Assembly: GCA_945861155.1 (NCBI GenBank)
Contig: CAMATN010000042.1
Coordinates: 1 to 35,493 of the forward strand
Length of the DNA stretch: 35,493 bases
Source of the DNA: Rhizobium sp. Q54
GTDB taxonomy: Bacteria > Pseudomonadota > Alphaproteobacteria > ATCC43930 > CGMCC-115725
Reading direction: 5' to 3'
Part shown: positions 7,013 through 22,158 of the stretch, piece by piece
Position numbering within the stretch: position 1 is the first letter of the stretch
Layout: each line of letters opens with the position of its first letter
Notes under the pieces: generated by a model
Told to the model about the DNA's origin: nothing
Seen by the model: only the letters and a program-made list of their open reading frames with translations
The model's database searches: none
Program-made: the position numbers and the translations under genes

Positions 7013-7030
7013 TTCCGTTCATTCCAAAAC

Positions 7031-7102
7031 GTCATGGCCGGGCTTGTCCCGGCCATCCACGAAGAGAACCACATGGATGCCCGGCACAAGGCTGGGCATG
7101 AC
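7031..7102. repeat. Dispersed palindromic element A (GTCAT...ATGAC ends)
   Basis: A 72-bp element between convergent genes, with GTCAT at the left end and ATGAC at the right. It contains a perfect 9-bp stem (ATGGCCGGG / CCCGGCCAT, loop CTTGT) and a second imperfect hairpin at the right side. It can fold as strong RNA hairpins in either orientation and probably serves as a transcription stop for both the reductase and mdh. The same end motif recurs at four other intergenic sites. Confidence 0.75.
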
Positions 7103-7136: not shown

Positions 7137-8153
<1,017 letters not shown>

Positions 8154-17536: not shown

Positions 17537-18052
17537 TTAGAACCCGAAGAATTCTTCGACGGGCCCCTTGGGCAGCGGGACCAGGAACCAGATCTCGAAC
17601 ATGAGGAACAGGGAGAGCGATATGGCGGCGCCGATCGCCGCGCCCTTAAGCGGCGAATACCCACCGAAATACCACATGAACAGGGCGATATAGACCGCCG
17701 ACGCGATATAGATGCCGATGACGCTGAGAGCCGCCACATAGACGATGAGCGGCACCAGCACGGCCAGAACCTGGCGAAAGGCCGGTTTCGAGACGAAATT
17801 CGTTGCCGTGCCGCTCTTATCGAAGGCCGCGCGGATCAGCACGACAACGCTTGAGATCGCCAGCAAGACGCCGATGTAAAACGGGAAGTAACCCGCACCC
17901 GGCCCTTCGATCTCGCGCCAGCGCACACCGAGGCGCAGGCTGTCCGCGATCACGATTCCCGCCACCAGCAGCAGGATCAGCGCGACGGCGATTTCCATCG
18001 TCCGCGTCGAAACCAGCCGCTTCTCGCCGCCGCCGTCTTTGTTGTGGCTCAT
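17537..18052 (-). CDS. tctB: Tripartite tricarboxylate transporter small membrane subunit TctB
   Basis: A 171-residue membrane subunit of the TTT transporter, which works with TctA and the periplasmic TctC to import carboxylates using an ion gradient. Four hydrophobic helices are visible (about residues 18-37, 55-75, 92-115 and 120-160). The family-typical GAGYFPFYIGVLL segment sits at the start of the second. The N-terminus is short and charged. The start is the ATG at 18052, with an AGAGGGGG purine run just upstream. It is the last gene of tctA-tctC-tctB, 61 bp after tctC. The substrate cannot be deduced from sequence. Confidence 0.9.
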   Translation of the reverse strand: MSHNKDGGGEKRLVSTRTMEIAVALILLLVAGIVIADSLRLGVRWREIEGPGAGYFPFYIGVLLAISSVVVLIRAAFDKSGTATNFVSKPAFRQVLAVLVPLIVYVAALSVIGIYIASAVYIALFMWYFGGYSPLKGAAIGAAISLSLFLMFEIWFLVPLPKGPVEEFFGF

Positions 18053-18113: not shown

Positions 18114-19145
18114 CTAATTGGCGAGAAAGTTCGCTTCTTTCATCAGGTCGTAGTGCAGTTTATCGGCCGATTCGATCCATTGGCGGTACTGAGGGCCGGT
18201 CATGACCGTCTGGTTGAACGCGCCCTGTTCCATGAATTGCCGCCAATCGGGCGTCTCCATGACCCGGGTAAACAACCCGACATAATACGCCACCTGGTCC
18301 GGCGTCGCGCCGCCCGCCATGAAAATGCCGCGCAGCATCTGGTACTCGATGTCGACGCCCGATTCCTTGCAGGTCGGGATGTCGCTCCACGCCATGGTCT
18401 CGGTCACCTTGGCTGTGTAGGTGCTGCGTTTGCTGTCGAAGATGCACAGCGGGCGCAGCGCGCCGGCCTTCCACTGCGCCACTGCCTCGATCGGGTTGTT
18501 GACCGTCGAGTCGACATGTTTGCCGACAAGCTGCACCGCGACGGCGCCGCCGCCGGCGAACGGCACGTAGGTCATCTTCTTGCCGCCGGTCAAGCGCTCG
18601 ATCGCGGCCGTGATGATCTGGTCTTCCTGCTTCGCGCCCGTGCCGCCCATCTTGTACTGGTGGTCGGCCCCGCTCTTGATCGCGTTGATGTAGTCCTGCG
18701 CGCTCTTGTAGGGCGATTCGGCGTTCACCCAGAATACGAACTGGTCGAGCGCCAGCATGGCGACCGGCGTCAAATCCTTCCAGCTGAACGGCGTGCCGGT
18801 GGCGAGCGGCGTGGTGAACAGATTGGAGAGGGTGATGACGAGCTTGTGCGGGTCGCGCGGCGTCCCCTTCATGTCGAGAAAGCCTTCGAGCCCGGCGCCG
18901 CCGGCCTTGTTGACCACCACCATCGGCTGGTTCATCAGATTGTGCTTCGTCACGATGCCCTGGATGAAGCGCGCCATCTGGTCGGCGCCGCCGCCGGTGC
19001 CGGCCGGGATGACGAAGGTCACCGGGCGCGTCGGCTGCCAGCCTTGCGCCGCGCTCGGCGAGGTGAAGGCGGCCAGCGCCGCCGCGACGCCCAGAGCGAT
19101 CCCGGGCAGCGTCGAACCCAGCGTCCTCAAGCGATGAAGCTCCAT
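18114..19145 (-). CDS. tctC: Tripartite tricarboxylate transporter substrate-binding protein (TctC/Bug family)
   Basis: A 343-residue periplasmic binding protein. The signal peptide ends near residue 33 (PSAAQ). The mature N-terminus has the family pattern RPVTFVIPAGTGGGADQMAR, in which the GGGAD loop helps to bind the carboxylate, followed by VVVNKAGGAGLEG (about 76-88). A KMGGTGAKQ-type loop near 175-183 and FAGGGAVAVQLVGKHVD near 205-220 mark the ligand cleft. It delivers substrate to TctA/TctB. GGAGAAGGAAC lies immediately before the ATG. A 78-bp spacer with a GC hairpin separates it from tctA, which could raise its expression relative to the membrane subunits. Bug proteins are diverse, so citrate is only one possible substrate. 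Confidence 0.92.
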   Translation of the reverse strand: MELHRLRTLGSTLPGIALGVAAALAAFTSPSAAQGWQPTRPVTFVIPAGTGGGADQMARFIQGIVTKHNLMNQPMVVVNKAGGAGLEGFLDMKGTPRDPHKLVITLSNLFTTPLATGTPFSWKDLTPVAMLALDQFVFWVNAESPYKSAQDYINAIKSGADHQYKMGGTGAKQEDQIITAAIERLTGGKKMTYVPFAGGGAVAVQLVGKHVDSTVNNPIEAVAQWKAGALRPLCIFDSKRSTYTAKVTETMAWSDIPTCKESGVDIEYQMLRGIFMAGGATPDQVAYYVGLFTRVMETPDWRQFMEQGAFNQTVMTGPQYRQWIESADKLHYDLMKEANFLAN

Positions 19146-19223: not shown

Positions 19224-20726
19224 TCACGCCGGCTTGGCCTCCCGGAATTTGTCGAGAACCCAGGCGATCACCGGCCACGACAGCAGGAGGGCGCCGAGCG
19301 TCATGATGCCGCCGACCAGTTCGTTCGACCAGAATATCGTCAGGCTGCCCTGCGACAGCAGCATGGATTGGCGGAAGGAACTCTCCGCCATGTCGCCCAG
19401 CACCAGCGCCAGGACCAGCGGCGGCAGCGGGTAGCCGAGCTTGTTGAACACGTAGCCGACGATCCCGAACATCACCATCATCCAGACGTCGAACATCGCG
19501 TTGTTGACCGTGTAGGCGCCGACGGCGCAGATCACCAGGATCGCCGGCGCGACGATGCTGAACGGGATGCGCAGGATCGCGGCGAACAGCGGCACGCAGG
19601 TCAGCACGATTACGAGGCCGGCCAGATTGCCGAGATACATGCTGGCAATGAGGCCCCACACGAAATCCTTCTGCTCGACGAACAGTAGCGGCCCCGGCTG
19701 CAGGCCCCAGATCAACAGACCGCCCAGCAGCACCGCGGCGGTGGGCGAGCCGGGAATGCCGAGGGTCAGCATCGGCAGCAGCGCGCTGGTGCCCGCCGCG
19801 TGGGCCGCGGTCTCGGGCGCCACGACGCCTTCGAGTTCGCCCTTGCCGAAACGCTCGCCATTCTTCGAGAACCGCTTGGCGATACCGTAGCTCATGAACG
19901 AGGCCGGTGTGGCGCCGCCCGGTGTAATCCCCATCCAGCAGCCGATGATGCAGCTGCGGATCGAGGTGGCCCAATAGGCCGGCAGCTTCTTCCAGGTCTC
20001 GATCACCGCGTTGAGACGCAACCTGGCGTGGGTCCCGGCGAACGAGAGCCCGGTCTCCATCGAGGCCAGGATTTCACCGATGCCAAAGAGGCCGATGACC
20101 GCGGTCAGGAACTTGAAGCCGGTCAGCAATTCGGCCGTACCGAACGTCATGCGGAGCTGCCCGGTGACCGTGTCGAGGCCGACCGAAGCCAATGCGAAAC
20201 CGAGGGTCATCGACGCCAATGTCTTGAACGGCGACCCCTTGCCCATGCCGATGAAGCTGGCGAAGGTCAGGAACTGGACAGCGAAGAGTTCCGCCGGACC
20301 GAATTTGAGGGCGAACTTGGCAACCACCGGCGCGAGGAACGTGATGACGATCACCGCCACCAGCGCGCCGACGAACGAGGAGGTAAAGGCGGCGGTCAGC
20401 GCCTCGTCGGCCTTGCCCTGCTGGGCCATCGGATGGCCGTCGAAAGTGGTGGCCACCGACCACGGCTCGCCCGGGATGTTGAACAAAATCGAGGTGATCG
20501 CACCGCCGAACAGCGCGCCCCAATAAATGCACGACAGCATGATGATCGCCGAGGTCGGCGGCATCGAAAAGGTCAGCGGCAGCAGTATCGCCACGCCGTT
20601 GGCGCCGCCGAGACCCGGCAGCACGCCGATGACCACGCCGAGCAGGATGCCGACGATCATCAGCGCCAGATTGAACGGATTGAGGACGACAATGAACCCG
20701 CCCCACAGCGCGCTTAGCTCTTCCAC
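19224..20726 (-). CDS. tctA: Tripartite tricarboxylate transporter large membrane subunit TctA
   Basis: A 500-residue polytopic membrane permease of the TTT family with about 11-12 helices. The diagnostic glycine-rich motifs are present: GVLPGLGGANGVAILLP (about 34-50) and its second-half counterpart GITPGGATPASFMSYG (about 265-280). GIPGSPTAAVLLGGL is near 338-352. It starts at GTG 20726, close to a GGTGGGGG purine stretch; the N-terminus aligns well with the family opening. It is the first gene of a tctA-tctC-tctB operon, where C-B-A is the more usual order. A terminator-like hairpin lies 33 bp upstream in its leader. No TctDE-type two-component regulator is in the window. Confidence 0.95.
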   Translation of the reverse strand: MEELSALWGGFIVVLNPFNLALMIVGILLGVVIGVLPGLGGANGVAILLPLTFSMPPTSAIIMLSCIYWGALFGGAITSILFNIPGEPWSVATTFDGHPMAQQGKADEALTAAFTSSFVGALVAVIVITFLAPVVAKFALKFGPAELFAVQFLTFASFIGMGKGSPFKTLASMTLGFALASVGLDTVTGQLRMTFGTAELLTGFKFLTAVIGLFGIGEILASMETGLSFAGTHARLRLNAVIETWKKLPAYWATSIRSCIIGCWMGITPGGATPASFMSYGIAKRFSKNGERFGKGELEGVVAPETAAHAAGTSALLPMLTLGIPGSPTAAVLLGGLLIWGLQPGPLLFVEQKDFVWGLIASMYLGNLAGLVIVLTCVPLFAAILRIPFSIVAPAILVICAVGAYTVNNAMFDVWMMVMFGIVGYVFNKLGYPLPPLVLALVLGDMAESSFRQSMLLSQGSLTIFWSNELVGGIMTLGALLLSWPVIAWVLDKFREAKPA

Positions 20727-20758
20727 GCTCCCCCACCGATTTCGCGGCTTCGCTGTCC

Positions 20759-20787
20759 AAAAAGACGGCCCCGCTGCCGGGGCAGTC
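20759..20787 (-). terminator. Intrinsic-terminator-like hairpin in the tctA leader
   Basis: On the minus strand a 10-bp stem with one mismatch (left arm GACTGCCCCG, right arm CGGGGCCGTC, loop GCAG) is followed directly by TTTTT. It points toward tctA and ends 33 bp before its GTG. No minus-strand gene lies immediately upstream, because hemA is on the plus strand. It therefore cannot simply end a neighbouring gene on that strand, and is a candidate attenuator. Confidence 0.55.
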
Positions 20788-20952
20788 TCGCACGGTCGCC
20801 GGTATTTGCCTAAAATACAGAATACTAAGTCTTGACGCGCCGCCCAACCACGCGACCACCGACACGGATTTTGTTAATGCCGCGACACCGCGCCCGATGG
20901 CGAAATCCGCGATATATGCTATCGTTGAGGTTCTCCGGGCAGCGGCGGCGAC

Positions 20953-22158
20953 ATGGATTACGAAGCTTTTTTCAGACAACGCCTCGATGTGCTCCGCGCC
21001 GAGGGACGTTATCGCGTGTTTGCCGATCTCGAACGGCGCCGCGGCCGCTTTCCACGCGCTTTCGATCATCGGATCGGCGCCGAGGTCACGGTGTGGTGCT
21101 CGAACGACTATCTCGGCATGGGCCAGCATCCGGTGGTCCTCGCGGCGATGACACAAGCGATTGAGGCGCTCGGCGCCGGCACCGGCGGCACCCGCAACAT
21201 CTCCGGCAACGGCCACCTGCACCTCGAACTCGAACAGGAGCTCGCCGATCTGCATGGCCGCGAGGCGGCGCTGGTCTTCACCTCGGGCTATGTCGCGAAC
21301 GAGGCGGCGCTGTCGACGCTGGCGGAGGGTATCCCCGGCACGGTCGTGTTGTCGGATGCGATGAACCACGCCTCGATGATCGCCGGCATCCGCAACAGCC
21401 GGGCCGAGAAGCAGATCTTCCGCCACAACGATGCCGACGACCTCGCGCGCCGCCTCGCCGCCCTGCCGCCGGAGCGGCCTAAGCTGGTCTGTTTCGAATC
21501 GGTCTATTCGATGGATGGCGACATCGCGCCGATCGCGGAATTGTGCGACGTCGCCGACCATTACGGCGCGATGACCTATCTCGACGAGGTGCACGCGGTC
21601 GGGCTTTACGGACGGCGTGGCGGCGGCATCGCCGAGCGCGACGGCGTGCTCCGGCGCCCGAGCGTGATCCAGGGCACGCTGGCGAAGGCGTTCGGGGTCA
21701 TGGGCGGCTATGTCGCCGGCTCCGCCGCGCTCGTCGATTTTCTGCGCAGCCACGCGCCGGGGTTCATCTTCACGACCTCGCTGCCGCCGGCGCTGGTGGC
21801 GGGCGCCCTCGCCGCGGTGCGCCACCTGAAAGAGAGCCAGGCCGAGCGCCTGCGCCACCAGGACCGGGTGGCCCTGGTCAAGCGTCGCCTGGTCGAGGCG
21901 GGTCTGCCGGTGATGCCGTCGGAAAGCCATATCGTGCCGGTGCTGATCGGCGACGCGGCGTTGTGCAAGGCGGCCTCCGACGCGCTGCTGCACCGCCATC
22001 GCCTTTATGCCCAGCCGATCAACTACCCGACCGTGCCGCGCGGCACGGAGCGGTTGCGGCTGACCCCGACACCCTTGCACAGTGACGGCGACATCGAGAC
22101 GCTGGTCGCCGCGCTCTCCGAGGTGTGGCAGAGCCTGACCCTGCGCAAGGTGGCCTAA
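20953..22158 (+). CDS. hemA: 5-aminolevulinate synthase (C4 pathway)
   Basis: A 401-residue PLP enzyme of the alpha-oxoamine synthase family. It condenses glycine and succinyl-CoA to 5-aminolevulinate, the first step of tetrapyrrole synthesis in alphaproteobacteria. It opens with [20 protein letters not shown], typical of bacterial ALAS rather than KBL or BioF. Asp211 ([12 protein letters not shown]) contacts the PLP ring and Lys245 ([13 protein letters not shown]) forms the Schiff base. CSNDYLGM (49-56) and [10 protein letters not shown] (76-85) complete the substrate site. The region upstream is AT-richer, but I cannot define a convincing promoter or FNR-type box. It ends 17 bp from the convergent lipoprotein gene. 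Confidence 0.96.

Follow-up and report, generated by a model that had tools for sequence, protein, structure and literature searches.

A terminator-like hairpin in the leader of the relocated tctACB operon of Rhizobium sp. Q54: probably a plain damper or a chance product of the move, not a switch

What is a structure built like an intrinsic terminator doing in front of the first codon of a transporter operon, pointing into the genes? Such a hairpin precedes tctACB in the window, the stretch of 35,493 nucleotides of Rhizobium sp. Q54 that was analysed here, and the initial annotation took it as a sign of conditional read-through. The identity of the operon was confirmed by Pfam for all three genes on the minus strand, namely tctA (19224..20726; PF01970), tctC (18114..19145; PF03401), and tctB (17537..18052; PF07331). 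It also proved right that no minus-strand gene lies directly upstream of the hairpin; the neighbour is the divergent hemA on the plus strand (20953..22158; 5-aminolevulinate synthase, TIGR01821, 639 bits), at the place where relatives carry gntR. The position of the tctA GTG start was supported by aligned relatives, and the Shine-Dalgarno-like G run before it, GTGGGGGAGC (20727..20736, minus strand), is conserved in them. The dN/dS values of tctA between the window and nine relatives were 0.10–0.18, similar to those among the relatives themselves, and this purifying selection indicates that the TctA protein is still in use. With tctA intact and selected in this way, the view that the operon is decaying into a pseudogene was rejected.

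The terminator-like hairpin is real. By direct reading, the minus strand from 20789 is GAGACTGCCCCGGCAGCGGGGCCGTCTTTTTGG, which folds as GAGAC-U-GCCCCG-[GCAG]-CGGGGC-C-GUCUU-UUU with an energy of −19.3 kcal/mol. The earlier count of ten stem positions with one mismatch, a loop of four, and then TTTTT was correct; if the outer G-U and A-U pairs are counted, the stem (20789–20762, minus strand) has 11 pairs (5 + 6), one U/C mismatch, and a GCAG loop. Two sequence hallmarks of an intrinsic terminator are present, a G+C-rich stem of at least 5 pairs with a short loop (11 pairs, loop of 4) and a U tract immediately 3′ of the stem (TTTTT at 20763–20759, minus strand), of which the first two bases are paired at the stem foot and which is followed by GG. 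The tctA GTG (20726) lies 32 nt past the end of the U run and 35 nt past the end of the hairpin. On the opposite strand, no T run follows the hairpin, and the element is therefore one-directional by sequence. Its inner part is a perfect palindrome, GCCCCG-N4-CGGGGC, located about 20–50 bp past the predicted transcription start, a usual place for a roadblock, and might thus be the DNA binding site of a dimeric regulator, with the hairpin form incidental. This reading is highly improbable, for it leaves the T run without use, and the leader region has no second copy in its own genome, where beyond itself only matches of 17–23 nt with E values of at least 0.16 were found. A repeated element was rejected on the same lack of a second copy. 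Another strong terminator-like hairpin (−19.8 kcal/mol) was observed elsewhere in the window, at 7030–7061 on the minus strand, 75 nt behind a called gene (7137–8105).

Dinucleotide shuffling of the 226-nt intergenic region produced an equally strong compact hairpin with a T tail once in 2000, while −15 or better was reached in 37 of 2000. A genome has thousands of leaders, and an event with odds of 1 in 2000 for each of them is unremarkable genome-wide. A simple consensus scan of 14 kb gave 13 terminator-like sites against 8.5 ± 3.4 expected, which by itself is weak evidence, and the 124-nt leader as a whole folded no better than shuffles (z 0.93); only the local hairpin therefore stands out. 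Comparable hairpins were sought in 60 stretches of the same genome (1.198 Mb, 192 divergent gene pairs), with gene neighbours taken from a crude caller based on G+C content by codon position, so that neighbour classes are approximate, the same hairpins changing class between two analyses. On these calls, a T tail followed 47 intergenic hairpins with energies of −15 or stronger. At −19 or stronger there were 19, with the upstream gene on the same strand in 14 and both neighbours on the opposite strand in 5; the arrangement of the window, in which the hairpin shares its strand with the downstream gene but not with the upstream one, occurred in none of these 19 and in 6 of the 47 (strongest, −18.8). 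A leader location is thus rare for such hairpins in this genome. Several strong ones lie 24–39 nt behind a gene on the same strand (e.g., 25, 26, 28, and 39 nt) and are built like the window hairpin, which suggests that the organism probably uses terminators of such build.

Related operons were collected with TctA as the query, and 80 loci at 74–89% identity were kept, plus loci from further genomes. The search for nearer TctA orthologues covered the genus, the family, a class sample of 385 genomes, and the family of the nearest relatives. Orthologues were found in none of 7 relatives from the same genus and, besides the own genome, in 1 of 38 from the family (77% identity); the nearest copies are 86–89% identical, and in the family of these nearest relatives 5 of 7 genomes have the gene. 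Hairpins were counted at 124 loci obtained by tblastn, two of which are the window itself, including 26 led by tctA and with a divergent GntR-like gene that were chosen by blastp (one of the 26, L118, duplicates L040; of the loci compared, L161 and L162 repeat L038 and L044, and L047 and L163 have only 87 nt of leader). In the 150 nt before tctA, none of the 26 has a hairpin that reaches −15, and a weaker one (−8.4) occurs in L072 only; stronger matches in L072 and L078 lie at 194–197 nt, far from the leader. For several tctA genes of other types, matches to the hairpin search fall within the tctB that precedes them. Among the genomes examined, the hairpin was found in one only. The conservation on which a regulatory reading would lean is missing: none of the close relatives found has the hairpin or its U tract, although the nearest of them have only 86–89% TctA identity, no congener having the gene. 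Likewise, no shared RNA structure appeared, the consensus of 7 aligned leaders containing 0 pairs.

The nearest leaders share another architecture, consisting of TTTACA or TTTACC, a spacer of 16–17 nt, TATTCT or CATTTT, GTATACCAAATAC, about 80 nt of little conserved sequence, the G run, and the start codon. The promoter scan recovered TTTACA-16-TATTCT in L043 (9 of 12 positions) and nothing above threshold in L044. Small hairpins of the form GGGTGG...CCACC(C), without a T run, follow ATAC at the predicted start in L037 and L043 and were not seen in the others. The palindrome GGTAT-N5-ATACC occurs with 0 or 1 mismatch in 21 of the 26 related leaders (best match with 0 mismatches in 5, 1 in 16, 2 in 3, and 3 in 2), and its position in the six nearest leaders coincides in part with the −10 region and the predicted start. 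Among 130 stretches taken from the tctA coding sequences of these loci, a control for background only, none contained it with 0 or 1 mismatch; the motif was derived from the same leaders, and the 21 of 26 is therefore descriptive. The gene divergent from tctA in the 26 loci is GntR-like, with 53–62% identity to a protein of the own genome that has FCD and GntR domains. The tctACB operon divergent to a GntR-like gene, with the shared palindrome, was seen in L037, L038, L040, L043, L044, L117, and further loci. By eye, an oxalyl-CoA decarboxylase-like gene lies behind gntR in most of these loci (in L038, TIGR03254, 946 bits). With gntR and often such a gene as neighbours, the TTT transporter is a predicted importer of oxalate, and tctACB would import oxalate or a related acid.

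In Rhizobium sp. Q54 this neighbourhood has been broken up. The window tctACB adjoins hemA instead of gntR, gntR-frc lies on contig C7, and contig C55 carries an oxc-like gene (63%). On C7, the sole perfect palindrome of the genome, GGTATACCATATACC (C7:51930–51944; loci L130 and L147), abuts the start of gntR, which is followed by a formyl-CoA transferase gene (TIGR03253, 623 bits); the GntR protein of this genome is accordingly predicted from sequence to bind the palindrome. Apparent formate dehydrogenase genes were noted by eye after the formyl-CoA transferase gene. In the window leader, the best match to GGTAT-N5-ATACC has 3 mismatches within 250 nt and 4 at the aligned place. Relocation of the operon and loss of the operator are thus established.

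The window keeps the −10-like hexamer TATTCT (20819..20824, minus strand), aligned with TATTCT/CATTTT of the relatives, and has TTGGGC (20842..20847, minus strand; 17-nt spacer) in place of their TTTACA/TTTACC −35. About 98 nt separate the −10 region from the start codon, against 88–99 nt in relatives; the leader length has hardly changed, which indicates that the hairpin arose by change in place. Next to the hexamer, the inverted repeat GTATTTTAGGCAAATAC (20802..20818, minus strand) has 4 bases more than the relatives, and the right half of GGTAT-N5-ATACC is gone. This perfect 6-bp inverted repeat at the predicted start, GTATTT-TAGGC-AAATAC, is the sole perfect copy in the genome. As the operator of a regulon, GTATTTNNNNNAAATAC was rejected: it matched perfectly at one place, the window itself, and at one more with one mismatch, and since a reversed control pattern also gave 2 places, such a regulon is unsupported.

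A promoter core upstream of the hairpin thus appears to be inherited, judging from the alignment, yet the TTGGGC/TATTCT pair falls below the threshold of the promoter scan. The promoter is weak by sequence, and the leader may hardly be transcribed. No promoter-like match was found by the scan anywhere in 20700–20960, including between the hairpin and the GTG. This bears on the idea that the hairpin is an insulator that stops transcripts arriving from upstream, antisense to hemA, while tctA is expressed from an unrecognised promoter downstream of the hairpin. The orientation of the element, towards the operon, and the damaged look of the old promoter speak for this, but the U tract and the GTG leave only their 32 nt for such a promoter, and the next upstream gene is not on the same strand; we regard this as quite improbable.

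Folding of the leader was informative on whether the hairpin could be switched. Its stem pairs were nearly all formed with a probability above 0.95 in every leader length tried. For RNA ending before the 3′ arm, the best fold reached −6.7 kcal/mol (predicted starts 20815–20808), and in the full leader a competing fold that pairs the 5′ arm with tctA codons was 3–6 kcal/mol weaker than the best fold. These codons are made after the termination decision, and the competitor therefore comes too late to decide termination. Accordingly, no alternative anti-terminator was found, the stem dominating all leader lengths with a single late and weaker competitor. Riboswitches and leader-peptide attenuators have a terminator hairpin with a U tract in the leader, a feature that the window shares; unlike them, it has no aptamer space, Rfam match, anti-terminator, or conserved leader structure. 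From the predicted start (about 20812–20808) to the stem there are about 22 nt, so that room for a usual aptamer is absent. Rfam gave no match at the gathering threshold, and up to E 10 only RT-17 was reported in the region, at 16.5 of the required 40.4 bits and on the other strand. A riboswitch was rejected on these three grounds: Rfam, space, and conservation. Leader-peptide attenuation was rejected by reading of the sequence, as no short ORF with a start codon and ribosome site lies between the predicted start and the stem.

What stands of the initial proposal is therefore that the leader contains a terminator-like hairpin, preceded by a promoter core that appears to be inherited, while conditional read-through is unsupported. 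Control of read-through might still lie with an RNA-binding protein, a small RNA, or the speed of polymerase, and have taken the place of the lost GntR operator. Such a role would suit a terminator-like element in the leader of genes that stay conserved after losing their ancestral control point, but it fits poorly with the lack of an upstream anti-terminator, of aptamer room, of an Rfam match, and of conservation, and with a competitor that needs later-made codons, and we consider it improbable. Its evolutionary form, a replacement in one lineage of operator by attenuator, in which tctACB, for an oxalate-type transporter, left gntR-oxc and lost the GntR operator, and a promoter-proximal terminator became the control point with read-through set by a trans-acting factor, is also improbable.

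We favour, at a probability of roughly 0.45, a lineage-specific intrinsic terminator that arose in place in the 5′ leader of a tctACB operon displaced from the gntR-oxc neighbourhood, and that serves as a fixed damper and not as a ligand-operated switch. Polymerase would start at the inherited promoter (about 20812–20808) and make about 22 nt before the hairpin folds; a substantial share of the rounds would end at the U tract with release of an RNA of roughly 50–55 nt, and read-through would yield a basal tctACB mRNA, so that the hairpin would act as a constant damper on the operon. An active promoter, a terminating hairpin, and a constitutive effect are all predictions from sequence; with a dead promoter, the hairpin might do nothing. 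The late, weaker competitor and the −6.7 kcal/mol fold before the 3′ arm are better accounted for by a fixed terminator than by a switch.

A neutral origin is the other account to be weighed. After the move and the loss of the −35 and operator, drift would have made the hairpin by chance; it may form but would have no regulatory role, and the real expression would come from elsewhere or be very low. Absence from all relatives, the lack of conserved structure, the decayed operator and −35, a leader no more folded overall than shuffles, and the share of shuffles already at −15 all agree with this, whereas the combination of strength and immediate U tract is rare, none of the 19 strong hairpins in 1.198 Mb has the window arrangement, and the coding genes are conserved; we hold it to be rather unlikely. 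Overall, since no related operon examined has the hairpin, it can probably be put down to plain damping or to chance in the moved operon, and not to a switch.

Premature intrinsic terminators in bacterial 5′ UTRs are described, on the basis of 3′-end mapping, in studies on E. coli (PMC7815308) and P. aeruginosa (PMC8297930). As in those cases, a terminator-like structure lies between promoter and first codon and points into the gene; the window hairpin differs in being known from the sequence of one genome and in having no upstream ORF with a role. At best, it is a premature leader terminator of a known kind, as in PMC7815308. Compared with the related tctACB-gntR-oxc loci, putatively controlled by GntR/FCD proteins, the window agrees in its −10 region, in the length of the leader, and in where tctA starts, but lacks an operator half site, the TTTACA −35, and a neighbouring gntR, and has the hairpin instead. 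TctDE/CitAB two-component control of tctCBA, which likewise concerns regulation of a TTT operon, acts at initiation according to a review of the TTT family (PMC5812351), in whose main text the terms "attenuat-", "terminator", and "untranslated" do not occur. A literature search of open papers found no TTT operon described as controlled by attenuation, by a riboswitch, or through its leader.

If the hairpin terminates, it would add one more premature leader terminator, in a transporter family for which we found no such report. The more useful result is comparative. The shared palindrome beside a GntR/FCD gene names a testable regulator of the related tctACB operons and, together with the oxalyl-CoA decarboxylase-like gene that is often present, predicts oxalate as the substrate, while the genome of Rhizobium sp. 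Q54 shows the fate of such a leader once the link to gntR is broken.
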